From positions 434,001-498,000 of the forward strand of contig CP126204.1 of NCBI GenBank assembly GCA_030272155.1: DNA of 64,000 nucleotides. The letters are read 5' to 3'. A program made the position numbers and the translations under genes. The notes beneath the pieces were generated by a model. That model ran no database searches. It had not been told where the DNA came from and saw only the letters and a program-made list of their open reading frames with translations. This stretch comes from Tetradesmus obliquus (lineage: Eukaryota > Chlorophyta > Chlorophyceae > Sphaeropleales > Scenedesmaceae). Below are positions 1-64,000 of this stretch, piece after piece. Numbering within the stretch: position 1 is the first letter of the stretch; each line of letters opens with the position of its first letter.

Positions 1-330
1 GCGCACCTGCGCCAGCGAGAGGTCTGGGTTGATGCCAACAGCGACAGCAGCAGCAGCAGCAGCAGCATGCGTAGCTGGCAGCCAGCAGCAAGTGACATCT
101 GTTTTGCACCGTATGTGGCCCCACCTGCGCCGACGAGGGGTCTGGGATGACGCCTGCCTTCTCCAGCGTGATCCCACCAACAGCGACAGCAGCAGCAGCA
201 GCAGCAGCAGCATGCGTAGCCGCTAGCTGGCAGCCAGCAGCAAATGACATCTGTTTTGCACCGTATGTGGCCCCACCTGTGCCAGCGAGGGGTCTGGGAT
301 GATGCCCGCCTTCTCCAGCGTTGCTCCCAT
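1..330 (-). repeat. Tandem copies of the 3' edge of DRC11 exon 277-435
   Basis: The exon end plus its GTGGGG donor (real copy 264-330) recurs at about 112-176 and 1-40, with a roughly 150 bp period. The unit also contains a (CAG)n tract and a GCATGCGTAGC segment. The copies lie in the intron downstream of the exon (gene orientation). Confidence -1.
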
Positions 331-3300
331 GAAGGAGTAGCCGCCCAGGTAGTCTGCCAGCTCCACCTTGGGGGGGCTCACCAGCACGCCGTTGCTGGCC
401 AGCTCAGCAAACAAGGATTCCATGGAGCGGTCGGCCTGCAGGGAAGAAGGGATTGACACATGCAGCCTGTTGGTGTGAAATGCAGGGGGATCTGAAGGCA
501 GTGGCAGTGGCAGTGCAGCACGCCGTTGCTGGCCAACTCGGCAAACAGGGACTCCATGGAGCGGTCGGCCTGCAGTGGAGCCACAGGGAGGTCATTGGCG
601 TGAAATGCAAGGATTTTGAAGGCAGTGCACGCAGTTGCTGGCCAGCAAACAGCGACTCCATGGAGTTTTCGGCCTGCAGCGAAGCAGAAGCAGTGGAGAG
701 CAGTGGAGAAGAGGCAGACACAGGGAGGCTGCTGGTGTGGGCGATGGCGACGCATGAAGCAGTGCTGTACATGTGTACACGCCGTTGCTGGTCAGCTCCG
801 CAGCTCGGCAAACAGCGACTCCATTGAGCGGTCGGCCTGCAGTGCAGCAGAAACAGACACATGAAGCCTGTTGATGTGAAGTGCAAGAGGGTCTGAAGTT
901 GTGCACCGCATGTACACGCCATTGCTGGCCAGCTCAGCAAACAGCAACACCATGGAGCGGTCGGCCTGCAGTGCAGCAGAAACAGGCACAGGGACGCCAT
1001 TGGCGTGAGGTGCGGGGGGATCAAAGGCATGCACCGCATGTGCACGCCGTTGCTGGCCAGCTCGGCAAACAGCGACTCCATGGAGCGCTCGGCCTGGTGT
1101 GCAACAGAGGAAGACACAGGGAGGCAGTTCAATACCTGTGTGCCTGCGGTTACTGGCCAGCTGGCTAACAGAGGCTCCATGGAGCGGCCACCCTGGCGCA
1201 ACACAGGCAGACACACAAGATTATTTGCGGCGTAACACTGTGTGGGGCGAGTACAGCTAGCTTTCCCAGGCAGTTACAGCTGTACATCGTGCACATAAGC
1301 ACACCGTGGGGTCATTTTTCTTCTTGCCCTTGCCCCCCTTTGCCTTCTTGCCGCCCGCCCCTTTCTTGGCCTTGCCGCCCTTCTTCTTCTTGGCCTTCTT
1401 GCCTGCTTTTGCCGCTGCCTCTGCCGCCACCAGCTCCTTCAGGTTGGCCAGCAGCGTGCGCATCTCCTCGTCAACCTGCAGGGGCATGAACGAAGCCCTA
1501 GTGCAACTGAGACACGCAGGCTACGACGTGGCTTCGGCATTACGTTTCATGTGGTGGTCAGGCGTCCATTCCAGGCTGGATCCAGCTGGTCCTGGCAGCT
1601 GCACAGCAAATGCGCGTCCACATACTTGCCTGGAATTGAACATCTTAGTTGTTGCTGCCTGGGCGCTACTGCCTGCTGCCGCGGCATCCCCATACAGTGC
1701 AGTGAGGCAACACGCTGCATTTCATGAGACCCGCCCAGCCGCACCTGCTGCCGGACCTCCTCAAACACAAGCGGCCGCAGCTCATCTTTCAGCAGCTCCG
1801 GGTCGTGCTGCTGCTCCCAGCTGGCGCCCCCAGGGGCGGGCCGCTCCTGCCACTTGCCGATGTACTCAGCCACGGCCCCTTCTATCAGCGGGATGAAGGC
1901 GCTGCTGATGACCTCAGCTGTGCCGCTGCCCTCTGCAGCGGCATCACCTGCAGCGCACAACAGCCACAAGCAGCAGCACTCGGGTTCCCTGTTGGCCACA
2001 GTGGTATGCAACCCTCGATCAGCGGAATGAAGGCACTGCTGATGACCTGTGCGGTGCCGCTGCCTCCGCAGCGGCATCACCTGCAGCACACAGCAGCCAC
2101 ATGCAGCAGCAATCGAGTTCCCCTTTCAGCTACAGTGTGATGCAACCCTCAATCAGCGGGATGAAGGCGCTGCTGATGACCACAGCTGTGCCGCTGCCCT
2201 CTGCAGCGGCATCACCTGCAGCGCACAGCAGCCACATGCAGCAGCACTCGAGTTTTCCTTTCAGCTACAGTGTGACGCAACCTTGGATAAGAGGGATGAA
2301 GGCGCTGCTGATGACCTCAGCTGTGCCGCTGCCCTCCGCAGCTGCATCACCTGCAGCGCACAGCAGCCACATGCAGCAGCACCCTGGTTCCCCTTTTCAG
2401 CTGCAGTGTGATGCAACCCTTGATCTAAGGGATGAAGGCGCTGCTGATGACCACAGCAGTGCCGTTGCCCCCCACAGCGGCATCTCCTATGTGAAACAAA
2501 CAGCCACAGGCAGTAGGACGTTGGCTGTCTGCATGAGCACAACATGACCCCGTGCCTACTATAATCAAGCAGTTGCTTGATGAGGATGTGGCTGGCATCA
2601 TGCGGCTCACGATAGCTGATCTCATTGGGCTAGAAACGTGCATTGCCGCTCACCCTTGCCGCCGCCCTTAGCGTCTTTGCCTGCCGGCTTCTTGGCTGCT
2701 GCTGCGCCTGGCTTGCCGCCCTTCTTGGACTTGTCGGCAGCAGCAGCAGCCTCGTCAGCCAGCAGCTCCTCCACAGACGGCAGCGGCGGCTGCAGAATCA
2801 CCTGCAGGAACAACACACGCGAAGCACACAAGGTGCGTGTGAAGAACACCTATGTGGTGAGCTGCTCACAGGCACCTGATATGCTGGAGCAAACATGACT
2901 TGCTGCTCAAGATGCACATGCTTATGGGCTGTGCTGCTCCCAGGAGAGGTTATGGCTGGTCCATTAGCTTGCAGGTGCGCAAGGCATGAAACCAGTTGTG
3001 CAGCATACCTTGGAGCCGCCTGCTTCCTCTGGTGGCAGGTCTGGGTACTCGCCAGTTTGTGGGTTGCGGTTGGCAATGAACCAGGCGTTGATCTGCATGG
3101 CAGAAGGTAGCAAGCAAACCATGCTGTGAGCTAGTAGATTTCTACATCAATGCGTGCAACATGCCTAGGAGGCCCTTGCCTGCGTGAGGTTGAGCCTTTT
3201 GTGCATGCAGTCGCTCCGCATGCTTAGCTCACTTTGTCCTGGATGGCCTCTCGCATGTCCTCCCCTTCTGTCTCCAGCACCTTGGCCTTGAGCGACACAA

Positions 3301-7014: not shown

Positions 7015-7878
7015 TGTCATGCCAGTAAGTTACAAAGTGTAACAAGAGCAAAGCCATACGGAAAAGGAGCACTGCATGTAGCGTGATCTTCCATGCCAGC
7101 GCCAATGGCTGGCTGCCTGCCGACAACTATCACGCCGTTGCCGAAACCACAGCACTGCCTCAGCCGAGGCTGCAGCAGCTCTGACAGGCAGAGATATACC
7201 GCAAAGGGTACAATAAACAAATCCCTGAGCAAGGTGGCGCAGGGCATGACACCTGCTGGCTGATAAAGACACCTGATAGCAGGTACTGCTGGCTTCTAGC
7301 ATGACCAGCTACTCAAGCACATGAGCAGGCTGTCATTGCAGCCACATCCGGCAGCAAGTTGCTGCTATACAATGAGGTAACACTGCAAGAATTGCAGGCA
7401 AAGGAAGCACATGCGTGACGGCAGTGCTAGCACTGCGGCAGAAACATTTTGTGTCGTGCTGCTGAAAAATCTGTGGAGAAAACAACTATGTGCATGCTTT
7501 GATCACAACACTGGCCCTACACTGCGAAACGTGAAGTGTCATGTGCCAGAACAGAGTATTGAGGAGCACAATGGCATGTGCTTGAAGTATTCACTCGACA
7601 ACAGAGCCCAAGAAAGGCATGGATGCAAGTGGTATGGGTGACTGTGCTGGTCGACAACAGAAGCAAGCAAAGGCAAACCAATACGATGCAGGCCTGGTCT
7701 AAAGCATGAATTTTGATGATCAAAAAGTAGCAAAGGAGATGAACGATGAAGAACATTCCTGGGCAAGTGCATGCAGCAAAGCACTGCAGCACGCCACATC
7801 CCACTCAGGAAACACCACACGGTAACCAGCTGGTGAAAGCTGGTACAATTGTATCTTCCAGCATCAGCTGGGATATGC

Positions 7879-10800
7879 TCAAGCGTGCAGGTCAGAGTAC
7901 AGCTTGGCACCCACAACATGGAACATGCTGATGGATGCCTCCTCCAGCTCTGACTTGGTCAGCGTGCATGTCTTGTCGCTTGACTTGAACACATACACCT
8001 CACACTCAGCCGCAGCACTGCATGTATCCTTGCAGGCAGCCTCGTCAGCAACAACGGCAGGGCTGGCAAGAGCAGCACCCACAGCCTGGGTCAGGCCCCA
8101 CACAGAGTAGTCATCACCATTGCCGATCTTGAAGCCAACAGTGTGGGTGGGGTTGCTGGCCTCCTCAGACAGCAGGCTGCACTGGCCGCCGCCACCAGCA
8201 GCGCTCACAAACTTGTACATCACGCAATCTGCAGATCCAGTGCAGACGTCACCGCATGCGGCAGCATTGGCGGCTGTGTTGTCAGGGGTCCAGGCATTCT
8301 CATCGGCCAGGTTGAACACGTCGTTGCGGGCATCAATCAGGGTGGAGTAGCACTGCTGGGACTGGGTGGCACCCTTCTTGGAGGTGGAGCCACTGGCGCA
8401 AGCTGCGCAGGCATCGCCAACCTTGGCGCCGCCAGAAGCAAATTTGCCATAGTCGCACTGCCCGCAGTTAGCACCACCAAAGCCTGGTGCGCAGACAGTG
8501 CACTCAAGAATGCTGGTAGACTCATCCTCCTGAGTGGAGTAGCCAGCATCGCAGGCGGTGCAGGTGGCGTTGGGTGCAAGCTCGGATCCACCAGTGGAGA
8601 AGCTGCCCTTGTCGCAGGGGGCGGGGATGCCATCAGCGCCCATCTTCCAGCCGGCCTGGATGACGCACTGGGTTGCAGCAGTCTTGCCAGCAGCGACAGT
8701 AGTCCAGCCAGTGCCGCAGCTGCGGCAGGGCAGGCGGTTCTTGCCCTCGTTGTATGTGCCGACTGGGCACTCCTGGGGGAGGGTGGCGGTGGTGCCCCAT
8801 CCTTCCTTGACCAGGCAGGCAGCCTCAGAGGTGTACAGGCCTATGCGTGCTGCGCTGTTGAGGATGTCCAGGGTGAGCATGTCGGCGGGGCAAGCAGTGC
8901 AGCGGGCGTTGGCCACGGCAGCACGGTCCACGCTGTCACCGTAGGTGTTCTTCTCGCAAGGCGCAGCCACCATGGGGGACATGGAGGTCAGGCCGTAACC
9001 GGCGGGCACCAGGCAGGCATCCTTGGACACGGAGCCAGCCTCCTTGGTGATGAGGCCAGAGCCGCACTGCAGGCAGGAGCAGGCAGCAGCAGGGAGCAGG
9101 CAGCAGCAGATGGCAGCAGAGGATATCAGTGCCAGGTCTTGTGTTGGGTGATGAGACATGCAGCAGCAGCAGCAGCAGCAGCAGCCTGTATCTGGTGGTC
9201 AAGCAGCTGATACGCCTTGCGCTTTCACTGCTTCAGGCTTGGATTATAAACAGCAATGGCAGCACGAGGTTTTGAATAAGTGGCTGACTGCTTGTGACTG
9301 TGTGGCAACGCTAGTACGATTTGCTTCCTGCAAGCATCTCTGCAGTATCAACTCACCGCCACGCATGGGTTCCTGTTCCAGTCGGCCTTGTAGGAGCCGA
9401 CAGGGCAAGCAGTGATAGTGGTTGCACCGTCAACCAGCTCAAAGCCGGGTGGGGCCAGGCACAGGGCAACACCAGTGGCGCCAGTCTCCTTGGTCTTCCA
9501 GCCGTTGGGGCAGGCAGTGCAGGACGTCACATTTGCCTCCTGGTCCTGGTAGGTGTCCAGGGGGCACTTGATGGCATTTGTGGAGTTGGTGGAGTCAATG
9601 AAGTAACCCTTGAGCGCCAGGGAGCATGCGGCAGCGGTGGTGGCGCCCTCATTGGCGGTGGTGATGCCATCAGGGCAGGGGATGCAGTTGGCGTTGGAGT
9701 TCAGAGCGATGGAGTATGTGCCCTTCTGGCACAGCTTGCCGATGCCCTTGTCCATGTAGGAGCCGGCAGGGGCCTCTGCAGAAGCAAAGCAGCAGCAGCA
9801 AGTAGGCAGCAGGATGTCAGCCTATGCACAGAGGCACACGGCATGGCTGTGTGGCAGTCAGTGTTGCTGCTGCTTGCCCAGCTATGTGAACTGCTCCGAC
9901 AAAAAATTGGCTGCCATCTGCTGTGTCAGCATTGCAGCTCGCATTGCCGTCTGCCAGCAGGAGCTGCCACATCATGCATGCAGCAATGCACCAGACGCGC
10001 AAGTAACAGAGGCACAATGATGTTGTCCCCCACACGTGAAGTGCAGCGCTGGGCAAAGCAGCAGCACACAAACAGCACAGCAGGCACTCACGGCATGCTG
10101 CAGCGGATATTGAGCCGATGGCAGCGGTGGTCAGGCCTGCGCCGCACTTCTGGCAGCCGGCAGTGTTCTGGCCCACATTGTAGGTGGCAATGTCGCACAC
10201 CACGCCGGCCAGGGACACCTTGCCGTCGCTGCCCTTGCTGGAGGTGCGGCCGTAGCCGGGCTTGGTGAAGCACTGCGCCTGGCTCTTGGCACCGGCAAAG
10301 GTGGTCAGCAGGCCATCTGGGCAGGTGGACTCTGCATTGGTGGGGTTGGTGGCATCACCACCTGGGCAGAAGTTGCCCTGGGTGCATGGCTGGCAGTTCT
10401 TGTTGGCATCCATGGCCAGGCCGGGGGCACAGTCTACAGGGCACAGTACAGGGCAGGCAAGGTTCAGGTGTCAGTGCCGTGATTGATGAAGCAGCGGTTG
10501 AAGTGGATGCAGCCAGCCCAGCAGCATGAATGCCACAGCCAGCAAATGGCCGCTGGCAGCAGCGAAGAGCAAGCATGGCACTGCACCAAGTGACCAGTCC
10601 GCAAGGGACACAGTGCTTTTAGCTGCTGCTGTTGCTTGTGCTGCTGCTCAGTCTGGATGGGCAGGACAGATCAGCCAACTCACCGCATGTCTTTGAGATG
10701 CCATCACGGCGCAGCCTGTAACCGCTGGCGCAGCTGGAGCACACCAGCTCACTGCGGCGGGTGCCTGGGATCCTCTGGTTGCGGCACTGGGAGCAGTGGG

Positions 10801-10945
10801 CGTCGATTCTGGTACAGTTGGGGGACTTGGCAGCCTGCAGTAGGTTGCGACCCTGCTCTTCTGCCTCAAGGTTCCACCTGGAGGCCTGTACAGAAGCAGC
10901 ACACAGCAGCACAAGGGCTGCTGCGGCCAGACACTTGCGAGCCAT
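7879..10945 (-). CDS. Secreted Cys-rich protein with ephrin-receptor-like repeats and C-terminal PAN-like modules (left copy)
   Basis: Four exons, 10945-10684, 10433-10092, 9775-9357 and 9066-7879, give 736 residues. MARKCLAAAALVLLCAASVQA is a clear signal peptide. Residues about 40-575 are repeated Cys-rich units of the GCC2/GCC3 (ephrin-receptor-like) style, with phrases such as CPDG and CPVGTY. About 580-645 and 660-720 are two PAN/Apple-like segments (CGDVC...CVMYKF and CKDTC...CEVYVF). No transmembrane segment follows, so secretion or cell-wall attachment is inferred; no enzyme motif is visible. It differs from the right copy by only about three bases in the last exon, one of them changing Leu to Phe after CPADM. 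TATA box at 11129-11135. The domain-style call is moderately sure; the function is unknown. Confidence -1.
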
Positions 10946-11128
10946 GAAAACTGTTTGCTAATCAAGAAGGTAAAGATTTAAAACAATCGTAAATGAACTG
11001 GCTGTAGGCTGAAAGCAGTTGCTCGGTTCCACGTGTCTAATTGTCGTTTGAATGCGTGACTAGCGGGCGCTTTGATGGTAGCTATGAAACAACGTGATTG
11101 CTGATATCTAATGATGCATTTCATGCGT

Positions 11129-11135
11129 CTATATA
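11129..11135 (-). promoter_or_regulatory. TATA box of left Cys-rich gene
   Basis: TATATAG lies about 185 bp upstream of the start codon, at the exact mirror position of the box in the right arm, so the promoter is duplicated too. Confidence -1.
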
Positions 11136-11379
11136 GGCTCCAGCGCTGAGTTCGCCGTGTCGCACACTGTGACGGACTGGCCAGAAGAGTGACAAGTGCA
11201 GTCCTCCACTGCGAAGTGCACAGAGACACCCGGGCGACATCTCAGAGAAGTTCGCATCCTAGTTCCAATGGTTAGCACTGCGCCAGTCCTCTTCGAACTC
11301 CGGGTGGTTCTATCACTGCTTCGACTGCCGATACAGGGCAGCAATGCTTCACCGTGCACACTGGCAAGTCCGAGCACTG

Positions 11380-11414
<35 letters not shown>

Positions 11415-11959: not shown

Positions 11960-12103
11960 TGCTGCAAAAGCGAGGTGTGCATCAGGAACCAGCTGCTGCA
12001 GCAGCAGCGGACACGATGATCTGCACGCTATGACTCACTATCACAGCAACGTTCACCACAAGTTGGCCACAGCAACGGCATCAACACACTATGGTCACCA
12101 GCA

Positions 12104-12247: not shown

Positions 12248-13395
12248 TGTTACAGTGCGCGAAACTGCAATAAAGGGTATCAAATAATGAATATATGATG
12301 CAAGAAACGAGTTTTGAAGCCAGCACGACGACTCCGAAAACTCAAGTTGGCGCTGTCGACCTCCTGGTGACTTGTCACTGCAGCTGCAACTGCTAAGGTG
12401 GTTGAATGCAACCAAGCAGCCAGCTGCTGCAATACAACACAAACAAAATGCAGGACAAACAACACGACCAGTAGAGCAGCAGTGCGCTGACCGCATTGCC
12501 CTCCCCATCATGTCTCTGGCAGTGACATGCGCTGATGTGCCAACCACCTGTGCAGACATAAACTGCTACAACGCTGTGAGCTGAGGTGCTCTTGACCACC
12601 ATGAAGATCCGCCCTGCATTTGCGAATGCAACGCTGGTGCCTGTACCCTGTTTCTGCCAAGGCTGCAGCATCTGTTCCATGGATGGCTGGACCGTGGCAT
12701 CAGTTGCCAAGTTGCGCCCCTGCGGTGGCGCGCAGAGACACAGCAACATTCTTTGTGACTCGCTGGCAGCAGAGTGTGGCATTTGTTAACAGCGACAGTG
12801 TTTGACAGGACAGTTTTTGAAATGACCATAGTGACAGTGTTCAACACAGCAGTGCTGCATCAACGGTGCTCCCTCCTAAGGCCAACCGCGGCAGCTGTAT
12901 CGCTCCCACTGATGTATAAGCAAATTTTTTTTAATATTACAACCCGAATACCAAGCCCCTTATTCGACTTGAAATGTGGTGACATCGTCAACTGCTGCCA
13001 CAGGAGCTCAACTTCCAGCTTGACTGAACAGATGCGCGACGAAGCAGCATTCAATGTGCAATTATCAATATTCAAACGTAATAGCATTGTATTTCTGGTT
13101 TTACTTTGCTGCGTCCACAACGCTGCCAGGCAGACACTGTCGCAAATGATTATTCAGCGAACACCCAGTGACCACTTACGTGAGCATTGCTGCCCTGTAT
13201 CGGCAGTCGAAGCAGTGATAGAACCACCCGGAGTTCGAAGAGGACTGGCGCAGTGCTAACCATTGGAACTAGGATGCGAACTTCTCTGAGATGTCGCCCG
13301 GGTGTCTCTGTGCACTTCGCAGTGGAGGACTGCACTTGTCACTCTTCTGGCCAGTCCGTCACAGTGTGCGACACGGCGAACTCAGCGCTGGAGCC

Positions 13396-13402
13396 TATAT
13401 AG
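13396..13402 (+). promoter_or_regulatory. TATA box of right Cys-rich gene
   Basis: TATATAG lies about 185 bp upstream of the ATG at 13586, identical to the mirror box of the left arm. Confidence -1.
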
Positions 13403-13585
13403 ACGCATGAAATGCATCATTAGATATCAGCAATCACGTTGTTTCATAGCTACCATCAAAGCGCCCGCTAGTCACGCATTCAAACGACAATTAGACACGT
13501 GGAACCGAGCAACTGCTTTCAGCCTACAGCCAGTTCAATTACGATTGTTTTAAATCTTTACCTTCTTGATTAGCAAACATCTTTC

Positions 13586-16500
13586 ATGGCTCGCAAGTGT
13601 CTGGCCGCAGCAGCCCTTGTGCTGCTGTGTGCTGCTTCTGTACAGGCCTCCAGGTGGAACCTTGAGGCAGAAGAGCAGGGTCGCAACCTACTGCAGGCTG
13701 CCAAGTCCCCCAACTGTACCAGAATCGACGCCCACTGCTCCCAGTGCCGCAACCAGAGGATCCCAGGCACCCGCCGCAGTGAGCTGGTGTGCTCCAGCTG
13801 CGCCAGCGGTTACAGGCTGCGCCGTGATGGCATCTCAAAGACATGCGGTGAGTTGGCTGATCTGTCCTGCCCATCCAGACTGAGCAGCAGCGCAAGCAAC
13901 AGCAGCAGCTAAAAGCACTGTGTCCCTTGCGGACTGGTCACTTGGTGCAGTGCCATGCTTGCTCTTCGCTGCTGCCAGCGGCCATTTGCTGGCTGTGGCA
14001 TTCATGCTGCTGGGCTGGCTGCATCCACTTCAACCGCTGCTTCATCAATCACGGCACTGACGCCTGAACCTTGCCTGCCCTGTACTGTGCCCTGTAGACT
14101 GTGCCCCCGGCCTGGCCATGGATGCCAACAAGAACTGCCAGCCATGCACCCAGGGCAACTTCTGCCCAGGTGGTGATGCCACCAACCCCACCAATGCAGA
14201 GTCCACCTGCCCAGATGGCCTGCTGACCACCTTTGCCGGTGCCAAGAGCCAGGCGCAGTGCTTCACCAAGCCCGGCTACGGCCGCACCTCCAGCAAGGGC
14301 AGCGACGGCAAGGTGTCCCTGGCCGGCGTGGTGTGCGACATTGCCACCTACAATGTGGGCCAGAACACTGCCGGCTGCCAGAAGTGCGGCGCAGGCCTGA
14401 CCACCGCTGCCATCGGCTCAATATCCGCTGCAGCATGCCGTGAGTGCCTGCTGTGCTGTTTGTGTGCTGCTGCTTTGCCCAGCGCTGCACTTCACGTGTG
14501 GGGACAACATCATTGTGCCTCTGTTACTTGCGCGTCTGGTGCATTGCTGCATGCATGATGTGGCAGCTCCTGCTGGCAGACGGCAATGCGAGCTGCAATG
14601 CTGACACAGCAGATGGCAGCCAATTTTTTGTCGGAGCAGTTCACATAGCTGGGCAAGCAGCAGCAACACTGACTGCCACACAGCCATGCCGTGTGCCTCT
14701 GTGCATAGGCTGACATCCTGCTGCCTACTTGCTGCTGCTGCTTTGCTTCTGCAGAGGCCCCTGCCGGCTCCTACATGGACAAGGGCATCGGCAAGCTGTG
14801 CCAGAAGGGCACATACTCCATCGCTCTGAACTCCAACGCCAACTGCATCCCCTGCCCTGATGGCATCACCACCGCCAATGAGGGCGCCACCACCGCTGCC
14901 GCATGCTCCCTGGCGCTCAAGGGTTACTTCATTGACTCCACCAACTCCACAAATGCCATCAAGTGCCCCCTGGACACCTACCAGGACCAGGAGGCAAATG
15001 TGACGTCCTGCACTGCCTGCCCCAACGGCTGGAAGACCAAGGAGACTGGCGCCACTGGTGTTGCCCTGTGCCTGGCCCCACCCGGCTTTGAGCTGGTTGA
15101 CGGTGCAACCACCATCACTGCTTGCCCTGTCGGCTCCTACAAGGCCGACTGGAACAGGAACCCATGCGTGGCGGTGAGTTGATACTGCAGAGATGCTTGC
15201 AGGAAGCAAATCGTACTAGCGTTGCCACACAGTCACAAGCAGTCAGCCACTTATTCGAAACCTCGTGCTGCCATTGCTGTTTATAATCCAAGCCTGAAGC
15301 AGTGAAAGCGCAAGGCGTATCAGCTGCTTGACCACCAGATACAGGCTGCTGCTGCTGCTGCTGCTGCTGCATGTCTCATCACCCAACACAAGACCTGGCA
15401 CTGATATCCTCTGCTGCCATCTGCTGCTGCCTGCTCCCTGCTGCTGCCTGCTCCTGCCTGCAGTGCGGCTCTGGCCTCATCACCAAGGAGGCTGGCTCCG
15501 TGTCCAAGGATGCCTGCCTGGTGCCCGCCGGTTACGGCCTGACCTCCATGTCCCCCATGGTGGCTGCGCCTTGCGAGAAGAACACCTACGGTGACAGCGT
15601 GGACCGTGCTGCCGTGGCCAACGCCCGCTGCACTGCTTGCCCCGCCGACATGTTCACCCTGGACATCCTCAACAGCGCAGCACGCATAGGCCTGTACACC
15701 TCTGAGGCTGCCTGCCTGGTCAAGGAAGGATGGGGCACCACCGCCACCCTCCCCCAGGAGTGCCCAGTCGGCACATACAACGAGGGCAAGAACCGCCTGC
15801 CCTGCCGCAGCTGCGGCACTGGCTGGACCACTGTCGCTGCTGGCAAGACTGCTGCAACCCAGTGCGTCATCCAGGCCGGCTGGAAGATGGGCGCTGATGG
15901 CATCCCCGCCCCCTGCGATAAGGGCAGCTTCTCCACTGGTGGATCCGAGCTTGCACCCAACGCCACCTGCACCGCCTGCGATGCTGGCTACTCCACTCAG
16001 GAGGATGAGTCTACCAGCATTCTTGAGTGCACTGTCTGCGCACCAGGCTTTGGTGGTGCTAACTGCGGGCAGTGCGACTATGGCAAATTTGCTTCTGGCG
16101 GCGCCAAGGTTGGCGATGCCTGCGCAGCTTGCGCCAGTGGCTCCACCTCCAAGAAGGGTGCCACCCAGTCCCAGCAGTGCTACTCCACCCTGATTGATGC
16201 CCGCAACGACGTGTTCAACCTGGCCGATGAGAATGCCTGGACCCCTGACAACACAGCCGCCAATGCTGCCGCATGCGGTGACGTCTGCACTGGATCTGCA
16301 GATTGCGTGATGTACAAGTTTGTGAGCGCTGCTGGTGGCGGCGGCCAGTGCAGCCTGCTGTCTGAGGAGGCCAGCAACCCCACCCACACTGTTGGCTTCA
16401 AGATCGGCAATGGTGATGACTACTCTGTGTGGGGCCTGACCCAGGCTGTGGGTGCTGCTCTTGCCAGCCCTGCCGTTGTTGCTGACGAGGCTGCCTGCAA

Positions 16501-16651
16501 GGATACATGCAGTGCTGCGGCTGAGTGTGAGGTGTATGTGTTCAAGTCAAGCGACAAGACATGCACGCTGACCAAGTCAGAGCTGGAGGAGGCATCCATC
16601 AGCATGTTCCATGTTGTGGGTGCCAAGCTGTACTCTGACCTGCACGCTTGA
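13586..16651 (+). CDS. Secreted Cys-rich protein with ephrin-receptor-like repeats and C-terminal PAN-like modules (right copy)
   Basis: Exons 13586-13847, 14098-14439, 14755-15173 and 15464-16651 join in frame to 736 residues plus stop. Domain order equals the left copy: signal peptide (1-21), Cys-rich GCC2/GCC3-style repeats through about residue 575, then two PAN/Apple-like segments to the C-terminus. The first three introns are flanked by GTGAGT donors and TAG/CAG acceptors; intron 2 is 1 bp shorter than in the left copy. Synonymous differences are few and both frames are intact, so both genes are probably expressed, or the arms are kept alike by gene conversion. Likely periplasmic or wall-associated; ligand unknown. 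Confidence -1.
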
Positions 16652-17524
16652 GCATATCCCAGCTGATGCTGGAAGATACAATTGTACCAGCTTTCACCAG
16701 CTGGTTACCGTGTGGTGTTTCCTGAGTGGGATGTGGCGTGCTGCAGTGCTTTGCTGCATGCACTTGCCCAGGAATGTTCTTCATCGTTCATCTCCTTTGC
16801 TACTTTTTGATCATCAAAGTTCATGCTTTAGACCAGGCCTACATCGTATTGGTTTGCCTTTGCTTGCTTCTGTTGTCGACCAGCACAGTCACCTATACCA
16901 CTTGCATCCATGCCTTTTCTTGGGCTCTGTTGTCGAGTGAATACTTCAAGCACATGCCATTGTGCTCCTCAATACTCTTTTCAGGCACATAACACATCAC
17001 GTTTCGCAGTGTAGGGCCAGTGTTGTGATCAAAGCATGCACATAGTTGTTTTCTCCACAGATTTTTCAGCAGCACGACACAAAATGTTTCTGCCGCAGTG
17101 CTAGCACTGCCGTCACGCATGTGCTTCCTTTGCCTGCAATTCTTGCAGTGTTACCTCATTATATAGCAGCAACTTGCTGCCGGATGTGGCTGCAATGACA
17201 GCCTGCTCATGTGCTTGAGTAGCTGGTCATGCTAGAGACCAGCAGTACCTGCTATCAGGTGTCTTTATCAGCCAGCAGGTGTCATGCCCTGCGCCACCTT
17301 GCTCAGGGATTTGTTTATTGTACCCTTTGCGGTATATCTCTGCCTGTCAGTGCTGCTGCAGCCTCGGCTGAGGCAGTGCTGTGGTTTCGGCAACGGCGTG
17401 ATAGTTGTCGGCAGGCAGCCAGCCATTGGCGCTGGCATGGAAGATCACGCTACATGCAGTGCTCCCTTACTGTATTGGATTATGGCTTTGCTTTCCCTAT
17501 CAACATGTAACTTACTGGCATGAC

Positions 17525-29454: not shown

Positions 29455-29492
<38 letters not shown>

Positions 29493-35166: not shown

Positions 35167-35220
<54 letters not shown>

Positions 35221-36505: not shown

Positions 36506-36539
<34 letters not shown>

Positions 36540-38134: not shown

Positions 38135-38266
38135 GCGAGGGCGTGCACCACGCTGCTCAGCAGCAGCAGCGGCAGCAGCAGCACGCCCAGCACGGCACTG
38201 GAGGGCGTGCCAGCGGCTAACGGCAAGGCCAGGGCAGACGGCAGGACCAGCGGCAAGGCGCAGTGA
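38030..38266 (+). repeat. Duplicate of the membrane-protein C-terminus and stop region
   Basis: The last 100 bp of the coding region (ACCATGCTGCTCAGC...stop) recur at about 38147-38266 in the 3' flank, with the TGA conserved and extra CAG units inserted. Confidence -1.
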
Positions 38267-43692: not shown

Positions 43693-44834
43693 ATGCCCCC
43701 AAGGAGTTTAGAGCAGCCCGAGCTGATGCTGCAGAATATCGAGGCCAATGCTGGCCGGTTGCACACCTTCTTGCAGATCCAACCAGCCTCTCAGCTGCTG
43801 CAGCAACCCCCACCTAATTCTGAGTTAACACGCGTGCAGAAGAACTTAATAGTCCACATTAATATGGTCCTTGCCGATATTGCCACAGAGGCTAGGCAGT
43901 TGATACAGCACCACCAGCGCCAGGCCGCATGCTAGGGCTTCTGCTGCGTCAGCAGGCAGCCCGCAGTGCAGGCACCCTGCTGGCCTGGCTGCAGCAGCGG
44001 CCAGAGCAGCTGCGATTCGACGTTCTGCAGCAGGTGATGGAGAGTGCAGCACATGGAGATTCCTACGCCACGGCACATATGTGGATGCTGTCGTGTGAGT
44101 GCCTGGTGACGATGAAGAAGGAGCTCAGCGCCGCTTTCATTGCGGCTCAGCCAGGCTGCAACGCAGCAGCCCTGGCAGCAGCAACGTTGCAGCAGCTGGA
44201 GCAGTCAGGTGTGTGCCTGGCACACGCATGTGTGCTGCCTGTGTAAGCTGCTGCCATTCAGCAGCTGTGTGCGTAGCTGCTACACAGATGCGTGCTGCTG
44301 CTGTCGCAGTTGAGACACCTCGCACAGCTGCCAGTCAGTTGTCTTGATGTACTTCTCGCTCATTGTTTCTTGCGTGGTTGCAGATTGTTAGTTGCAAAAA
44401 GTTGCAGCTTGAACTCAGCATGTACGCAAAATAGAAGTTTCGTCACACCTGCCAGCTGCTCGGCTGCTGGCACCACTGTGGTTAAATTTGCTGTGCTGCT
44501 GCTGCTGCTCCTGCTGCTGCTGCTGCTGCTGCTGCTCACTGTGCAGGGCTGCTCAGCAGCATGCACGCCAGCTTAGTGCCGCTGATGCAGGTCATCAGGC
44601 AGCAGTGGAGCAGCACGTCCTTGCCCGCGACGCCGTACCATGCATTGTTTGACATTGTGCGCTGCCTGATGTCTGTGGTGAACAACAGCTTGCACTATGC
44701 GCGTGTGCTCGTGCCCGCTGCATTGCAGCACACTGCCGTGCAAGCGACCAGGCAGCTGCTGCAGCAGTTGCAGGCCTGTGGAGTGCTGCTGCCAGATGCA
44801 GCCACAGCCACAAGCTCGTCCGGCAGCAACAGCA

Positions 44835-44885
<51 letters not shown>

Positions 44886-48378: not shown

Positions 48379-48441
<63 letters not shown>

Positions 48442-50965
48442 ACTGCTGCCCCTACAGCTGCCGTCACTGCTGGGAGCGCTTTTAAAGAAGAGCCTGAACA
48501 CCCTCTATGTACATCGCGACATCATGCTGCTGGTAGATGTACTGGCACTGCACTGCCATGACGTGTACTTGCGGCTGGAAGACAGCAGCTTGGACCCAGC
48601 AGTGGGCCTGGCAGTGGCACAGCAGCTCACACAGAGTGCTGTGTTACCTGCGCTGCGTACGGTGCTGTGCTCAACGCACGCCTTTATTAGCAACCCCGCA
48701 AACAAGCTGGAAGCGGCAGATCATGCTCCGCTGGCAGCCTCTCTGCTAGACCTCTTCAGAGCCATCTGCTGTGCATGGCCAGGTAAGCCTGCCAGCTCAG
48801 CCACAGGGCTGTGTGTCGAAAGTAGCCACCGCAGTGCAGCCCAGTACATTATGCTAAGTGTGGCTTGATCATCGACAGGTCCAGCTGTGGTCGGCCGCAT
48901 GTGCAGTGTGCGCACTGTCTCTGCTTAGCAATAAGTCCTTCAGGCAGCTGCCAGAGGCAGCCTAGATGCTGCAGTGAACAAATGTGCTCTATGTACCGTC
49001 ACAGGTGTGAGTGCGTAGTGCAGCTTTCAGCATGACTAATTGCTTTGTCTGCTTCGTTGATCTAGTCTCTGCTTGTTGTGCTGGGCTGCTGATTGCAGGC
49101 GGCATTTTGAGATCGCAGCAAGCCTGCATTACAGCAGAACCAGCTGTGCAGCTGGGGCTGGAGCTGCTGCAGCAGATTGCAGCGCAGCCAGACAACCCTC
49201 GCATGCAGCGCCGTGTACACGCAGTGCTGAGGTCATGCGCAGCCGCTGGATTCAGCTTGGTGCAGCAGCTGCTGGCAAAGGTTGAGGCAGGAGGGCAGCC
49301 GGGCTGGCTAGGTGTGGCTGAGTCAGACGCGTGTGCAGGTGAACTACTGGCGAGCAGCAGCAGCTGCTCGCCGCTGCTGAAGCTAGTGCTGCTGCTGCTG
49401 GCTCAGCAGGTAATGCACCTGGCGCAGCATGACTGGTGCAGAGGTCTGTCGCCGCTGCAGCTGCATGCTTGGAGGCTGCAGGAAGCCATTCCGGAGTGTG
49501 ATAACTGTTTCATGGCGGCACACATGCAGCAAGAGCTTGAAGAGCTGCGTGCTGCGGGAGTTGTTGTTGCCAACAGCAGCAGCAGCAGGAGTGCTGCTGC
49601 CAGAGCAGCACCGGCAGCAGCAGCAGCAGCAGCGGCGGCGGCAGAGGCCAGCACCACCAGGACTGGACAGCTGCAGCTGCTGGAGCAGCAAACGCAGCAG
49701 CTGCTGCACACTCTTCAGCTGCCGGCGCAGCAGCTGCAGCTGTGGGTGTAAGCACCACCCGCTGGAGCAGGCTGGATCATGCAGGATAAGCCATGCTACC
49801 ATGAAGCCAAGTTGAACCCTTTGGTAGGCAGCTTTGTAGGAGATACAGCTGGCCTGCGCACCACATTACAGCTGCTGCAGCCATTGCTGCGCCCTCTGTG
49901 GCGACAGCTGGAGGTCAACGACTGGAGCAATGCAAGCAGCAGCAATCACATGGTGCTGCAGCTGGTGCAGCAGCTGCCTGGGCTGCTGCTTGGCATAGCC
50001 GCCAGTTGGGCTGATGTGGACGCTGAGCTGGCAGCAGCAGCAGTGCAGTGCGCTAGCTGGGCACAGAACGCTGCAGGTGCTGCTGCAGACGGCCTGCGTG
50101 CGTGTGCCGCAAGCACAGCACTGTCTCAGCAACAATGCGCTCAGTACGCAGCAGCTGTCACAGGGCCTCAAATGCTACTGCCAGCGGTACAGCTGTTGCA
50201 GCGGCTGCTTGTGCAGCCCTCCTGCACCAGTCCTGAGCAGCAGCAGGGCAGAAGTGCAGCCAGCTCCACCGCTGCAGCCGAGCACCAGCCAGTAGCAGCA
50301 GCAGCAGCAGCAGTACCAGTAGCAGGCGAGGCAGCAGCAGGGAATGCCAATGCATCAGCCGCTTCAGCAGCGGCAGGGGTAGTGGCAGACCACGGCGGCT
50401 GGAGCCGGCTGCAGAAGCAGCACACAGTCTTCCTTCTTGTGAAGATAATCAATGACTGCCTCGTCGAACACCTCAGAATCAACAGCATTACACAGGCTGA
50501 AAGCAACCCAATGTCCGACCCACACAGCATGGCGCGGCTGGCAGCCGTGCTTGAGACCTTCGCTCGCGTGCAGATGCAGCCTTTGCTAGAGCTACCGCGC
50601 GATCACAGCAACGAGATGAAGCAGCATTCAGAACAGCTGTGTGGCCTCACACTGTACTGCGGCAGGAAGAGCATGGACTTCACACAGCATGCTACTGCCG
50701 CTGCCTGGGCATTGCGTTGCAGCCAATGGCGCGCACAGCAGCTGCAGCAGAGCCCGGCGGGCAGCAGCAGCAGCAGCTGCTGGCGCTGCTGCTGTCGTTC
50801 CGCAAGCTGGCGCGTGTTATGTTTCGCACGGTGGTTCACGACTCCGGGTCTTTTGAGGAGTGCTTTGCGCAGTCCCTGTCTGCCGCGGAGTTCATGGCGG
50901 CGTCACTGCTGACGCCGCAAGGCAGCAACCATGTGAGCAGCAGCATCAATGCTGGTGTAGCTGCT

Positions 50966-50997
<32 letters not shown>

Positions 50998-55600: not shown

Positions 55601-58558
55601 CCTGTTGCCTGCAATGCGCGTGCTGCTCCGCAACAACCCTTCATCGCCTGCAGGCCAACAAGTTCAGCGACCCTGTAACGGGCGAGGATGTGGTCATGCT
55701 CATCCAAACAGATGTGACAGCACGCGTAGTGGCGATGCGGCAGGTACAGCAGGTGCTGAATGCGGAGCAGGGGCTGCTGGAGGGCATCTTCCCGCGCCAG
55801 GTGCGTGTTTCTGTGCCCTGCTGCTGTATGATTTGAAAGTTAAGAGTAAGAACTCACCAGCCTGGCGGGTATGTGGTCATCAGTTTGTCATTGCTGGCTG
55901 TGGTGCTGCAGCATATTGTGATGAGGTGCATTTTGCAGTTGAATAGTGGTGCATCCAGGGGTATGGCGCCGAGCAAGATCCAGCAAGCGCTCTCACATCC
56001 CTGTGGTGTTCTGCTGTGGCTCACTTGCAGGTGCTGCAGCTGCTCACAAGGGCAGCAATCAGCAGAGGCGCGGGCTCAGGGCTGTTGACAGCAATAGGCA
56101 GCCCCACACGCCGCAGCGATGACAGCAGCGCAGGCTCTAGACCAGCATCGCGCGTGTCTGTGACTGGCGGTGGCAGGAAGATCAAAGTGCCCATGCAGCA
56201 CGAGCAGGTGCGTGGCTGGCGGAAAGGACACCAGGCTAGCGCTTGAGCTGGTTGCATGTATTGGCTGTACTTCTTCGAACTGCTTGCGCTGTCTCGGCAC
56301 CTGTAGATACAGTGCCTGCTGGGGTTCACCCTGCGCAGTTGTGTACATCAGGTCAGCCCGTCAGCACGTGCTTCCCCAGCCAAAGCATCTGAGCTATGCT
56401 TGCCTGCCTGCCATTGTGGCTGCTGCATGTGAGTATGCTGTTTGCAACGCCATGGGCTTCACCAAGACGTATTTTAACATAGATTTGTTTTGCCCACTTT
56501 GCTGTGGCTTTATGCTGCCTGTTGCTGTGCTGCAGGTGAGTGTGCTGTTTGCCGACATCGTGGGCTTCATCACATGCTTTCCTGCAGAGTCCAGTGTTTT
56601 TGCCCATCTTGCCGTGCTAAATTCCTGCCTGCCCTCTATTCTGCAGGTGAGCGTGCTGTTTGCGGACATCGTGGGCTTCACCAACATGTCCAAGGAGGTG
56701 GAGCCAGAGTCGGTCATGGAGTTCCTCAACGACCTCTACTGCAGGTGGGCAGCAGCAGCAGCAGCAGTAGCAGCAGCAGAAGAAGCACGGCAAGCAGCAA
56801 GTGACTAATGGCTCCTATTTGTGGCTGCCATGCTCTGACCCTGCAATCCAAGCTGAATCTTGAAGCGGCTGAGTGTTGATGTAGACACATTGCAAGCAAA
56901 GTGGGGCTGTATGCCAGGGTGACGGCTGCCAGCTGTAGGCAAGGTTGAAGCAGCAGCGCGCCACTGCTCATGTAATGCCTGACACTGTGTCTCCATGCCT
57001 GCTTGCCTCGCCAATCTCAGGTTTGATGACTTGCTGGAAGCAGCTGGCGTTTACAAAGTGGTGAGCGCCGCTGCCAGCAGTTGCTGCCATTTGAACAGCA
57101 CAGCCAGTGCTGGCGCTCATACGGCTGGTCCTAGTGTTGATGTGTGAGCTATGTTGCGCCCATGCTGCAGCAATGCGCTTTTTAAGCAGGGTTGCGTTGA
57201 CTGCATGATGATGTGTCTGCCCGCTGATGTGCCCCTATGTGTGCCTGCTGCAGGAGACCATTGGCGACTGCTACATGGTGGCTGGCGGGCTCATCTTCAC
57301 TGACGCGCAGGGTTTCAAAACAGTGCTGCAGTCGAAGGTACAAAAATAGATAGCAGCACAGCTAGCTAGCGCCTGCTTGCAGCACACAGCCGCACACAGC
57401 ACCGTTTCCTTTGCACATGCGGATACTTGCAGGCACAGTGCGTCGTTCAGCACAGCGGCTCTGCATACCAGAAAAAGGATTGTACTTGACCACTGAGTGA
57501 TACGAGCCATATAACCGGAGCTGCTGCTGATGTTGTGCTGCTTGTCTGCTGCCTCTTGCTGCTCAGGTGGACCCGCTGCATGCGCACCGCACGTTTGCCT
57601 TTGCGCTGGCGATGCTGGAGGCAGCAGCAGACGTGGTCATGCCCGACACAGGCCTGCCAGTGCGGCTGCGTGTAGGCATACACAGCGGGTGAGTTTGGAA
57701 CGGGAACGAACAAAAAAGCAGTACGCACCTGCTCATGCATGCAGTTGTTAGTCACCAAAAGACTGGCCGGATAAGAGCAGCTTCTGGTGCCATGCTGCTC
57801 TTGGTGAACGCTACTGTTGGGTGATTGCATTGCTGCTGCCTGCAGGCCTGTGGCGAGTGGCGTGGTGGGCAACCGCATGCCGCGCTTCTGCCTGTTTGGG
57901 GACACTGTCAACACAGCCAGCCGCATGGAGAGCAGCAACCAGCGCCCCGGCTGCATGCACATCAGCGCAGACACGCACGGCCTGATACCTGGCGACTTCT
58001 GGCAGGTGGGATTGGCTGAGCTTGCCGCCGCGCGGGATGCAGTCCTGCAAGAGTGGTGCTGTGTGTTACAAAGGCACAACCTACATGTGCTGCTTGCTGC
58101 TGCCTGGATTCAAGCATGCACAATGCACGTGCACTTGAAGCTGGCCGGCTGCCTTACAGTCTTGCATGATGGTATCCTGTGCTGCGCAAGGTGGTGTGAT
58201 GCTGCTGGTTGCCATTGTCTGCTGCCCTGCATAATTCCATCCACAGGCATCTGGTGGCATTGAGGTCAAAGGCAAGGGGCACATGGAGACATACTACTTT
58301 GACCCTGCCGCAGCACTCAGCACAGCAGCCACGCAGCAGCTGCACGCGCTGCTGCGTAAGACGCGGGACGAGGCAGACAGGCAGGGCCTGCAACATTGCT
58401 GGAGCAGCAAGTGCTCACCAACAGCTACTGCAGCTGCTGCAGCGCTGCAAGCAGGCCAGCCAGCCAGCATCCTGCAGCTGCTGGAAGCGCTGACGTCCCC
58501 CAGAGATCCTGTTAACAGCAGCGCAGGAGACAATGTCACCAGCTTCAATGGCGAGTAG
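52611..58558 (+). CDS. PAS-containing class III guanylate cyclase
   Basis: Fourteen exons close in frame to 985 residues: 52611-53013, 53214-53555, 53875-54167, 54345-54528, 54739-54890, 55067-55510, 55654-55800, 56031-56207, 56647-56744, 57021-57060, 57254-57337, 57567-57688, 57846-58005, 58247-58558. Predicted to make cGMP from GTP. The catalytic domain (about 714-900) has both metal Asp (D721 in LFADIVGF, D765 in ETIGDCYM), the guanine-selective Glu761 and Cys844 (FCLFGDTVN) and the transition-state Asn851 and Arg855, so it should be active as a dimer. Upstream, about 265-385 and 390-635 look like PAS-type sensory regions; the second ([12 protein letters not shown] ... [19 protein letters not shown]) is interrupted by about 120 low-complexity residues. 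The N-terminus [12 protein letters not shown] has no membrane span; its Cys residues might be acylated. The cyclase-domain call is strong, the PAS call moderate. Exon 9 has two intronic edge copies upstream. Confidence -1.
56425..56695 (+). repeat. Three copies of the 5' edge of cyclase exon 9
   Basis: The sequence encoding [11 protein letters not shown] (catalytic metal-binding motif) occurs at 56429-56468 (degenerate), 56531-56577 and 56641-56690 (real exon, 56647). Spacing is about 105-110 bp. The middle copy retains CTGCAG and the Asp codon, then diverges. Confidence -1.
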
Positions 58559-61718: not shown

Positions 61719-64000
61719 TCAGTCAATGGTGATGGTTGGCTGCTTTGCAAACGCCTCGCAGGGTGCGCTGCTGAGCCGTGCCTTCACTTGGCCTGCAATG
61801 CTGCTGTAGGCCTGCCCTGCAGGGCTGTCAGGCGCTGTCATAACAATGGGCACGCCGATGTCTGATTGATGGCGGATCTGGCCGTTCAGCGGCACCTGAC
61901 AACAGCAGCAGCAGCAGCAGCAGCAGCGCAGGCAACGTGTGGTCAAGTTCAACCTTTGTTTCAGCTCTAGCAATGCATGCATACATCCGGCACAGTGGGA
62001 CACCTTGTACTGCCTCTCACAGAAACCATCGCTTGCCTCATAGTGTCACTAACATAACACAACATAGCAAAAACAATAACATAACATATCTGGCTCACCT
62101 GCCCCAGCAGTGGTACCCCCAGGTCTTCCGCTGCTGCTGCTACGCCGCCAGACCCGAAGATGTTGTCCTGGTGCCCGCAGTTGGGGCAGCAGTAGTACGC
62201 CATGTTCTCAACCAGCCCCAGCAGCGGCACATGTACCTTGCGAAACATCTGCGCACCGCGCCTGCAGGGCAACACAAGACATGGGGTCACATGGGGCGCA
62301 GTACTGCAGCAGAAGCAGGTCCTATTTGCTGTTTTTGACTAGTTCTAGCAGCGAAACATGCACCTTGTGGAAACTCTGCATGCCGCGCCTGCAGGGGGCA
62401 AACAGGGGCGGGGAAGTGCGATGACATGCAGGCATGCACTGGTGCCAGGAGGATGGCACTTACGACAGAGGCATGAGGCCAAACTGCAAAGCCCCGAGCT
62501 ATCCCAGTTGACGGATCAAGAGTTCTGGCAAGAATTTGGTTTTGATGGAGTCAAGCTGTGGGGTGTGTGTCTGAGGCAAATGTACATGTGCGCCATCAGC
62601 AACTCTTCTGGATCATTTGATGCATTACTGATACATAATTTGAAACGCAAGGCCCCTACCGTGCGTCTAGCAGCGCCACGTCCTGCGGCGTTGACACGAT
62701 GACTGCTCCAGCAAGCGGCAACCGCTGCCCCAAGCCAATCTGCGCGTCGCCAGTGCCTGCAGCAACAAATGCAACAGCAACAAAGCAGTGCATAAAGTAG
62801 CTGAATGGCTTCGGCAGCATAACCACATGTATGTGACAAGAGAGATGCGGTCCGCTGCATGCTGACGCGTCACTGTAACAGCAAAGCCACGCCGCAGGGC
62901 TTTGCAGGCTCCTCGCAAGCACTCATCACTAAGCCCACCACCCTTGCGGTGATGATGTAGTTGCCGTAAGCGGCAGCCAGACACTTGCAGTGGGAATGCA
63001 GTCCTCACCATGACACGCAATGAGCGCAAGCATGCAAAGGATGCAGGAAACATGCAGGCCATCACCTGGCGGCATGTCACCACCAGCAAGTCCAGGGCCC
63101 CAAGGCCGTGCGAAGGACCCAGTAGGCAGCAAGACAACAGAACAACCCAACAAAATGTGTATATGCACATTTGCAATATCCTTACCTGGCGGCATGTCCA
63201 CCACCAGCACATCCAGCGCCCCTGGCCGCGCCACCACTCAACAATAAGCAGCAAAACAGCCACAAAAGGTCACACATCCCCACCTGGCGGCATATCCACC
63301 ACCAACACGTCCAGGGTCCCCCAGGCAGTGCAAAGGTCCCAGTAGGTAGGCAGCAAGACAACATATCAACCCAACAAACCGCATATATAAAAATACGTAG
63401 TATCCTCACCTGGCGGCATGTCTACGACCAGCACGTCCAGATGGCCCCAGGCGGTGCCCATGAGGAAGCGGTCAATGGCACTGTTGACAATCGGACCACG
63501 CCACACCACTGGGGTGTCACCCTGCAGGCGTAAGAGGATTGCAGGCAAGCAGCCAATCAGCATGACAGATGAGGAAGCGACCGATGCGCTGTTGACAATC
63601 GGACCACGCCACACCACAGGGGTGTCACCCTGCAGGACAGAATGCGCAGGCACACAGTCATCAGCATACGACAGCAACTGCTTCATGTTGTATATGGATG
63701 CTGTCTCCAGTGGCGCCCAGCAGGCGGTATACTGTCAGTTACCCGGTGGTTCACCGTGTTATAATCCTTCTGTAACCACGTATAAACCTTAACATGCTGC
63801 AGCCCCACCTTCATGAAGCCGATGGACATGCACTTCACCCGGTGGTTCACCATGTTATAACCCTGTTGTCATTATGTTATCACCATGTCATAACCATCAA
63901 CATAACAAGCTGCAGCCCCACCTTCATAAAGAAGCCCATGGACATGCACTTCACGCGGTGGTTTTCAGGCGGCAGCAGCAGCCCCTCTGACGCGGCACAG
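61719..64000 (-). CDS. NUBPL: Mrp/NBP35-family Fe-S carrier P-loop protein, NUBPL/IND1-like, N-terminus beyond window
   Basis: Exons in the window: 64000-63922 (partial), 63521-63410, 62756-62660, 62261-62099 and 61895-61719; all junction phases agree. Seen in order: [31 protein letters not shown] (Walker B/switch region), [54 protein letters not shown] with the CPxC cluster-binding motif, and the end region [14 protein letters not shown]...[12 protein letters not shown]. The Walker A loop is expected upstream of 64000. By family these proteins carry a 4Fe-4S cluster; the NUBPL/IND1 branch serves assembly of mitochondrial complex I. The NUBPL branch rather than HCF101 or cytosolic NBP35 is inferred from the wording and short C-terminus; targeting cannot be checked without the N-terminus. 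Three exons carry edge duplicates. Confidence -1.
62204..62397 (-). repeat. Duplicate of the 5' edge of NUBPL exon 62099-62261
   Basis: The acceptor CTGCAG plus about 57 bp encoding [12 protein letters not shown] recurs at about 62337-62396, 133 bp upstream in gene orientation. The copy has several substitutions ([12 protein letters not shown]). Confidence -1.
63062..63460 (-). repeat. Four copies of the 3' edge of NUBPL exon 63410-63521
   Basis: The sequence for [11 protein letters not shown] plus the donor occurs at 63404-63445 (real), about 63288-63330, 63184-63225 and 63065-63105. Spacing is 96-130 bp. Copies keep the GCCGCCAGGT junction almost exactly, including the GT. Confidence -1.
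63470..63640 (-). repeat. Duplicate of the 5' edge of NUBPL exon 63410-63521
   Basis: About 50 bp encoding [15 protein letters not shown] with its CTGCAG acceptor at 63585-63637 duplicates the real exon start (63470-63526), 111 bp apart. The two are nearly identical over this part. Confidence -1.
63738..63960 (-). repeat. Copies of the 3' edge of the NUBPL exon at the window end
   Basis: The sequence encoding [14 protein letters not shown] plus the GTGGGG donor (real copy 63916-63962) recurs at 63806-63852 with a small deletion, and its first part at 63739-63765. A GTTATAA(C/T)CC motif accompanies the copies. Confidence -1.

Follow-up and report, generated by a model that had tools for sequence, protein, structure and literature searches.

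The noncoding sequence beside dozens of exon edges in the green alga Tetradesmus obliquus contains one or more degenerate copies of the edge of that same exon, together with its splice site, arranged head-to-tail as a local tandem array. These copies, referred to here as echoes, are present in a 64-kb stretch of the genome (C14:434001-498000, hereafter the window; the assembly consists of 104.66 Mb in 17 contigs) and also in 250 kb of sequence from elsewhere in the genome, which together with the window makes up a wider sample of 314 kb. It is likely that the echoes arose by recurrent local tandem duplications straddling splice junctions. If a unit of approximately 90-250 bp (median ~130 bp) that spans a splice junction is duplicated, then neither the exon nor the splice site nearest to it would be altered and the normal product would still be made, in accordance with the proteins of DRC11 and GCL described below, and the displaced copy, comprising an exon edge, a splice site and an intron flank, would become intron sequence, which is where the echoes are found. 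Further duplication of whole units would then multiply the copies, as is indicated by intron 5 of GCL, and repeated events of this kind would approximately double the length of the introns, as seen in three checked genes, two of which were chosen for having echoes.

Occurrence, position and direction of the echoes

The initial annotation of the window had reported echoes beside several named genes, and this is confirmed by self-alignment, which detects head-to-tail local pairs in the window. Of the 19 arrays found there, 18 overlap a predicted exon edge or a gene end (one of these, 32419-32909, is flanked by exon on either side), and the sole purely intronic array is 19914-20041. The comparison with shuffled sequence that had been proposed covered 26 stretches of ten kb (20 from the genome and 6 pieces of the window). 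At least one local pair is present in 21 of them, whereas order-2 Markov shuffles of the same stretches (one each) contained no pair. The wider sample contains 137 arrays spread over 15 of the 17 sampled contigs. After setting aside 15 arrays (those >1200 bp long or with a period >300), the remaining 122 were classified as acceptor (38), donor (42), gene-end (10), noncoding on both sides (20) or exon on both sides (12). Thus, 80 of the 122 lie at an acceptor or donor edge, in agreement with the window. The period of these edge arrays has a median of 129 bp and falls within 80-160 bp in 60 of the 80, in agreement with the spacing of about 95-160 bp noted earlier; their exon part has a median of ~55 bp.

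The predicted exon edges, for both the window and the wider sample, were supplied by a self-trained gene finder. An initial self-training, which had drifted to splice sites in CAG repeats, was discarded and replaced by a second training. The resulting predictions matched exactly 51 of 54 checked edges with a precision of 0.47, the latter probably because echoes are also called as exons. Tandem Repeats Finder (TRF) by itself overlooks arrays that are degenerate or comprise 1.3 copies.

The checked exons are those of three genes (viz. DRC11, which lies in the window, LigA and GCL) and they provide 54 internal edges and 27 introns. The exons of DRC11 were fixed by the protein P0124, to which 564 of 568 residues are identical, together with the structure 8glv from Chlamydomonas, those of GCL by P0002, a protein of S. 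acutus, and those of LigA by P0121 (OEZ86_003615), a public gene model (595/595 residues). Echoes, numbering 1-6 per edge and 44 altogether, are found at 20 of the 54 internal edges; however, as LigA and GCL were selected for echoes visible in their predicted proteins, this proportion should not be interpreted as an unbiased frequency. In all three genes, exon starts are echoed upstream and exon ends downstream, which bears out the earlier description that upstream copies carry the acceptor and exon start and downstream copies the exon end and donor. The same search carried out with reverse-complemented edges found echoes at 0 of 54 edges, and with the opposite end of the exon at 0 of 33. When the spans of the three genes were scanned independently for repeats, 20 arrays were obtained, each containing exactly one exon edge, and none of the 20 lay wholly within an intron or an exon. 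LigA encodes an NAD-dependent DNA ligase of bacterial type; it is a nuclear gene with many introns (about C6:850775-860082, minus strand), and 2 of 7998 scored database candidates reached 1e-90.

The arrays and echoes of the window are as follows.

4-329, minus strand: DRC11, donor-side array of exon 277-435, with echoes of the exon end at 125-176 and 7-36
277-435, minus strand: DRC11, functional exon (ADRSMESLFAELASNGV...PDPSLAQ), the source of echoes on both sides; checked against P0124
436-1304, minus strand: DRC11 intron 12, six echoes of the start of the next exon with its acceptor (516-569, 627-673, 778-836, 915-965, 1042-1093, 1146-1187); exon checked against P0124
1948-2653, minus strand: DRC11 intron 10, four echoes of the exon start with its acceptor (2022-2080, 2156-2215, 2293-2350, 2429-2484); TRF period 135
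20677-20840, plus strand: U-box gene (putative name), acceptor echo at 20683-20717 (97%), 123 bp 5' of the exon start at 20806
31730-32909, plus strand: GYF_2-domain region (putative name), repeated exon ends and starts (31730/32075; 32225-32262 echoing 32354; 32419-32909 with period 77); gene-model edges only
35813-36393, plus strand: acceptor-side array of the exon start at 36327, echoes at 35835-35881, 36090-36148 and 36214-36260; gene-model edge
36414-36808, plus strand: donor-side array of the exon end at 36468, echoes at 36542-36596, 36661-36715 and 36781-36808; gene-model edge
37825-37972, plus strand: membrane-protein gene (putative name), acceptor echo at 37831-37874 of the exon start at 37930
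38043-38269, plus strand: membrane-protein gene (putative name), donor-side array, period 129; gene-model edge
56421-56688, plus strand: cyclase gene (putative name), acceptor echoes at 56429-56465 and 56536-56576 of the exon start at 56647
62220-62396, minus strand: NUBPL-like gene (putative name), acceptor echo at 62347-62388, with a stop in that frame
63062-63458, minus strand: NUBPL-like gene (putative name), donor echoes at 63066-63111, 63186-63232 and 63284-63331
63460-63674, minus strand: NUBPL-like gene (putative name), acceptor echo at 63571-63629
63741-63963, minus strand: NUBPL-like gene (putative name), donor-side array, period 96; gene-model edge

The echo copies in the window accordingly number 6+2+4 in DRC11, 1 in the U-box gene, 1 in the GYF_2 region, 3+3 at the exon at 36.3-36.5 kb, 1 in the membrane-protein gene, 2 in the cyclase gene and 1+1+3 in the NUBPL-like gene. 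Among the genes of the window the checked exons are those of DRC11, and the remaining edges are gene-model edges; U-box, GYF_2, cyclase and NUBPL are names from the initial annotation, for which the support is a reading of the translations.

Exclusion of the echoes from gene products

The echoes are excluded from the normal product, at the protein level, for both DRC11 and GCL. None of the 10 echoes in introns 10 and 12 of DRC11 is present in the proteins P0124-P0126. The source contigs of these proteins are uninterrupted and only 2.3-3.0 kb in length, and due to this they are probably derived from RNA. Similarly, in the S. acutus GCL protein P0002 each echoed exon edge occurs once. Preservation of the coding product is understandable, because the exon-proximal site is the only one needed for it, and a single copy is what the proteins from the short uninterrupted contigs contain. 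In contrast, public gene models of T. obliquus take in echoes as exons, two in the DRC11 model P0123 (OEZ86_008306) and one in the GCL model P0001 (OEZ86_012514). The echoes thus account for wrong gene models, in which public proteins of this species contain echo exons.

Placement of the arrays relative to gene structure

If tandem duplications occurred at random positions, then the arrays should be distributed between exon edges and intron interiors in proportion to the available sequence. With uniform placement on the collapsed sequence, 52% of the edge and intronic arrays are expected to lie at edges, whereas 80 of 91 were observed there (p 7e-13). This test covered 91 of the 122 arrays (80 edge and 11 intronic), and outside it were 3 intergenic, 10 gene-end, 8 exonic and 4 mixed arrays and 6 with internal exon labels. 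Among the pairs with at least 90% identity, 19 of 20 are at edges (p 5e-5). Further, the exon share of the duplicated unit is 0.2-0.6 in 68 of the 80 edge arrays, compared with 43% under uniform placement; the low end of this range is partly a detection limit, and a high exon share may not be tolerated since the copy must keep its intron signals.

Edge copies remain visible for longer because one of the copies is exon, and therefore a search was also made in which all predicted exons and everything aligned to an exon were masked. In this search, 31 of the 44 leftover arrays still touch an exon or an echo, while 10 lie inside introns and 3 between genes. In the 27 checked introns there were 0 interior arrays, whereas equal rates would give 13-17 before any loss of visibility; however, few intron flanks of edge arrays clear the random baseline, so that no more than a few visible interior arrays would be expected. 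The placement, masking and checked-gene results thus all differ from a minisatellite-type pattern, in which placement is independent of gene structure, with the caveat of visibility just mentioned.

The foremost alternative is that neutral tandem duplication occurs uniformly everywhere and that edge arrays are seen more often merely through their conserved exon part. The slower decay of the exon parts, and the small number of intron flanks above the random baseline in the checked genes, due to which interior arrays would often be invisible, are consistent with it. However, this alternative is difficult to reconcile with the placement of the most similar pairs, with the arrays that stay at edges when exon-derived sequence is masked, or with the empty interiors of the checked introns, and we regard it as possible but doubtful. 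The suggestion that the arrays result from simple duplications with one breakpoint in the exon therefore stands in part: local duplication with one breakpoint in the exon, and its tolerance on the noncoding side, are supported, but a plain process that is neutral everywhere is not fully supported, as purely intronic arrays are too rare (less markedly so after masking) and drift alone would not have preserved the exon parts of the echoes so well (omega 0.52, see below).

If straddling duplications do favour junctions over intron interiors, a view supported by the above tests and partly confounded by the longer visibility of exon-bearing copies, then the reason may lie in nicks or breaks at the borders of exon/intron chromatin or of R-loops, followed by fill-in. 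A stronger form of this proposal, that junctions are duplication hotspots in this lineage by virtue of transcription, splicing or exon chromatin, with duplications of ~130 bp centred near them, the copied sites kept in use and the introns growing outward from their exons, is put forward here tentatively and has perhaps a modest chance of being correct. Should the junctions be true hotspots, one class of structural mutation would be tied to splicing or transcription, and new exons and introns would have a source that is open to testing.

Observations at variance with straddling duplication

A number of observations weigh against recurrent duplication across junctions, or at least against its simplest form. 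Visibility explains part of the edge bias, since copies lying entirely within introns decay faster. The gene finder, given its precision, also calls false exons, which may inflate the edge counts in both the unmasked and masked tests. Due to these effects, the edge bias is probably real but several-fold at most, and the level suggested by the raw counts is unproven. A second group of observations concerns the intron flanks. Although 46 of the 80 edge pairs align more than 20 bp into the intron, homology ends at or within 20 bp past the junction in the other 34, of which 31 are 80-100% identical. When total exon divergence sets the age in a neutral simulation, 5% of the pairs are of this short-homology kind; when ageing is by synonymous changes and the echoes are partly constrained, 25-34% are obtained versus 31 of 67 observed (67 of the 80 edges were used in this test). 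The third group indicates constraint. In the exon parts of the echoes, omega is 0.52 (95% 0.40-0.66), i.e. about half of the amino-acid changes expected from the mutation spectrum measured in introns are present, and gaps number 14 in 2177 bp, compared with 114 in 2599 bp of the intronic parts. A gapped alignment shows the splice dinucleotide unaltered in 30 of the 32 acceptor echoes and in 34 of the 37 donor echoes that could be read (30/37 and 31/42, respectively, by a cruder ungapped placement), and the echo acceptors retain a pyrimidine tract (0.65, versus 0.48 at background CAG sites). The omega estimate is based on 69 edges, with 2 further edges on contig C3 dropped, and 9 of the 80 edges that were too short or of unsure frame were left out of the tallies of frame, spacing and indels.

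When 33 short-homology pairs were examined, 6 showed detectable flank homology (z at least 3; control 4%; 4 of the 80 edges were dropped from the flank-homology test), and age may explain most pairs of this kind. Because the intron flanks of many young pairs fail to align, copying of the exon edge and splice site alone was also suspected. However, this was dropped as the principal explanation, as the copies in intron 12 of DRC11 show related flanks by eye and synonymous ageing yields the above fraction of short-homology pairs. The intact splice sites and pyrimidine tracts may largely reflect inertia at the estimated ages. For the exon parts, the results indicate that they are kept by something beyond drift, which may be weak selection on their use, homogenisation with the exon, or exchange between diverged homologues, and some residual constraint or homogenisation forms part of the preferred explanation.

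Divergence of the copies also bears on how the arrays grow. It had been stated that the copies degrade with distance from the exon, but this is not seen in the checked genes, where the identity to the functional edge shows 8 falls, 10 rises and 6 ties over 24 steps in 9 multi-copy arrays. Among 25 arrays based on the gene finder, the change from the first to the second copy is a fall in 13, a rise in 7 and a tie in 4, with 1 unusable. Degradation with distance is therefore at most a weak tendency. Since identity does not fall steadily, growth of the arrays is not a regular, conveyor-like process starting at the exon, and copies seem also to be made inside the arrays. In intron 5 of GCL, 3 of the 4 neighbouring echo pairs are equally alike in their exon and intron parts (0.96-0.98), as expected for inert duplicated units, and the fourth pair meets the end of the array. 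The aligner used for this comparison has low gap costs and gives an identity of ~0.78 on random sequence, and large contrasts alone were taken from it.

Other explanations for the echoes

Retention of the splice signals raises the question of whether selection maintains the copied acceptors, and perhaps donors, for use in alternative or stepwise splicing. In the checked genes, AG is retained in 22 of 23 echoes and GT in 16 of 21; in addition to the pyrimidine tract, the low omega of acceptor echoes (0.41; 0.27-0.59) and the two echo exons in the public DRC11 model are in keeping with such a function. However, donor echoes are closer to neutral (omega 0.62; 0.43-0.83), the proteins P0124-P0126 lack the echoes, and divergence is equal in the exon and intron parts of most neighbouring pairs in GCL intron 5. 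Further, echo spacing is not biased towards multiples of three, and the echoes include some with stop codons or indels, on the basis of which general translation of the echoes was rejected. A functional role of this kind is unlikely in our assessment.

An echo could also be derived from another haplotype, if sequence had been exchanged between homologues so diverged that their introns can no longer be aligned. The excess of synonymous differences (synonymous/nonsynonymous 43/23 in pairs with identity of at least 0.93, 92/48 in those between, and 93/92 below 0.88) fits such an origin, as do young pairs in which the splice sites are good and the flanks cannot be aligned. However, three pairs in which the flank homology is unalignable or short are 97.6-100% identical, unlike diverged haplotypes, and this origin is improbable.

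Introner elements are known to cause large-scale growth of intron sequence in algae and they form dispersed families that share sequence. Insertion of introners or transposons carrying splice sites would account for recurrent new intronic sequence beside many exons. However, every echo matches its own exon, and similar sequence in introns of unrelated genes was not found in the 314 kb, where non-local matches were seen for 3 of 68 spacer or flank segments, all of them at most 38 bp. Hence no transposon family is seen in the 314 kb, and an introner origin was rejected as very improbable. An assembly artefact is equally hard to credit, as most copies differ by 5-20% in their exon parts and by more in the introns, and the arrays are distributed over nearly all of the sampled contigs.

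Contribution of the echoes to intron length

In the checked genes, introns without echoes have a mean length of 252 bp (n=12), whereas those with echoes average 697 bp (n=15). When the echoes are removed (using echo spacings entered by hand), the latter shrink to a mean of 287 bp. The expectation that echoes lead to growth of introns is therefore supported, and in these genes the effect is large, as echo expansion makes up 46% of all intron sequence; in the wider sample, expansion by edge arrays makes up 13% of the genic noncoding sequence. According to a published comparison (PMC5966456), the mean intron length is 462 bp in T. obliquus, and 302, 284, 270 and 230 bp in Monoraphidium, Chromochloris, Chlamydomonas and Raphidocelis, respectively. 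Growth by echoes could account for the excess in T. obliquus over those four algae. Introns are seldom observed in the course of lengthening by means other than transposons. In T. obliquus, much of the added sequence can be traced directly to its source, and it arrives with ready-made splice sites.

Comparison with known systems

In the RdRp gene of potato, a tandem duplication across the acceptor intron-exon boundary has given rise to a new intron (Ma, Lan and Niu 2016, PMC4974935). The duplicated segment there, as in the present case, crosses the acceptor boundary, and the copy inherits the acceptor, the pyrimidine tract and the exon start. Crossing of a boundary is seen in 20 of the 20 arrays of the three checked genes. 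However, the potato case represents one event in one gene, leading to a new intron, whereas here dozens of edges are involved, both acceptor and donor, with up to 6 copies, and the checked proteins do not include the echo. The AGGT tandem-duplication model of intron gain (PMC3443670) likewise invokes a local within-gene duplication that supplies splice signals, but in it exon sequence is duplicated and an intron created, whereas here an existing splice site is copied and existing introns are lengthened. In that model, the duplicated exon segment gives both splice sites of the new intron, and in contrast each checked array contains one existing edge. In duplicated human genes, variable internal tandem repeats, of which some lie at exon-intron boundaries, are reported to be linked to new introns (De Grassi and Ciccarelli 2009, PMC2812944). 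They resemble the echo arrays in being tandem, in having some units of 60-230 bp and in their possible location at such boundaries, but they concern recently duplicated paralogues and are not centred on exon edges genome-wide.

Paired nicks are reported to lead to tandem duplications in plants (Schiml et al. 2016, cited in PMC8316200). Judged by the title of that work, this is a tested route in a nuclear genome of the green lineage, although the breaks were induced. We know of no link between duplications by paired nicks and splice junctions. Introner elements differ from the echoes in forming dispersed families, and tandem or mutually exclusive exons are duplicated as whole exons, whereas each array here contains a single edge with a short exon part. 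A literature search at the level of titles and abstracts, with most subscription papers outside its reach, found no description of genome-wide exon-edge arrays. In view of the single-gene precedent in potato, and as no genome of this kind was found described, the novelty of the present observations lies in their scale and in their focus on junctions.

Other features of the sequences

The window also contains a 4.35-kb inverted duplication (7016-11352 and 13180-17524; 99.1% identical) that carries a cysteine-rich gene with large exons in two copies, placed divergently, and no local arrays were found within it. ARAGORN predicted no tRNA in the window, and no Rfam family reached its gathering threshold there. 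CAG/CTG triplet repeats are plentiful in the window (44823-44884, 48380-48449, 35168-35219 and others). Elsewhere in the genome, C16:1000001-1010000 contains large tandem arrays that are outside the edge pattern, with periods of 274 and 351 bp, lengths of ~4 kb and ~2 kb, and identities of 91-95%.

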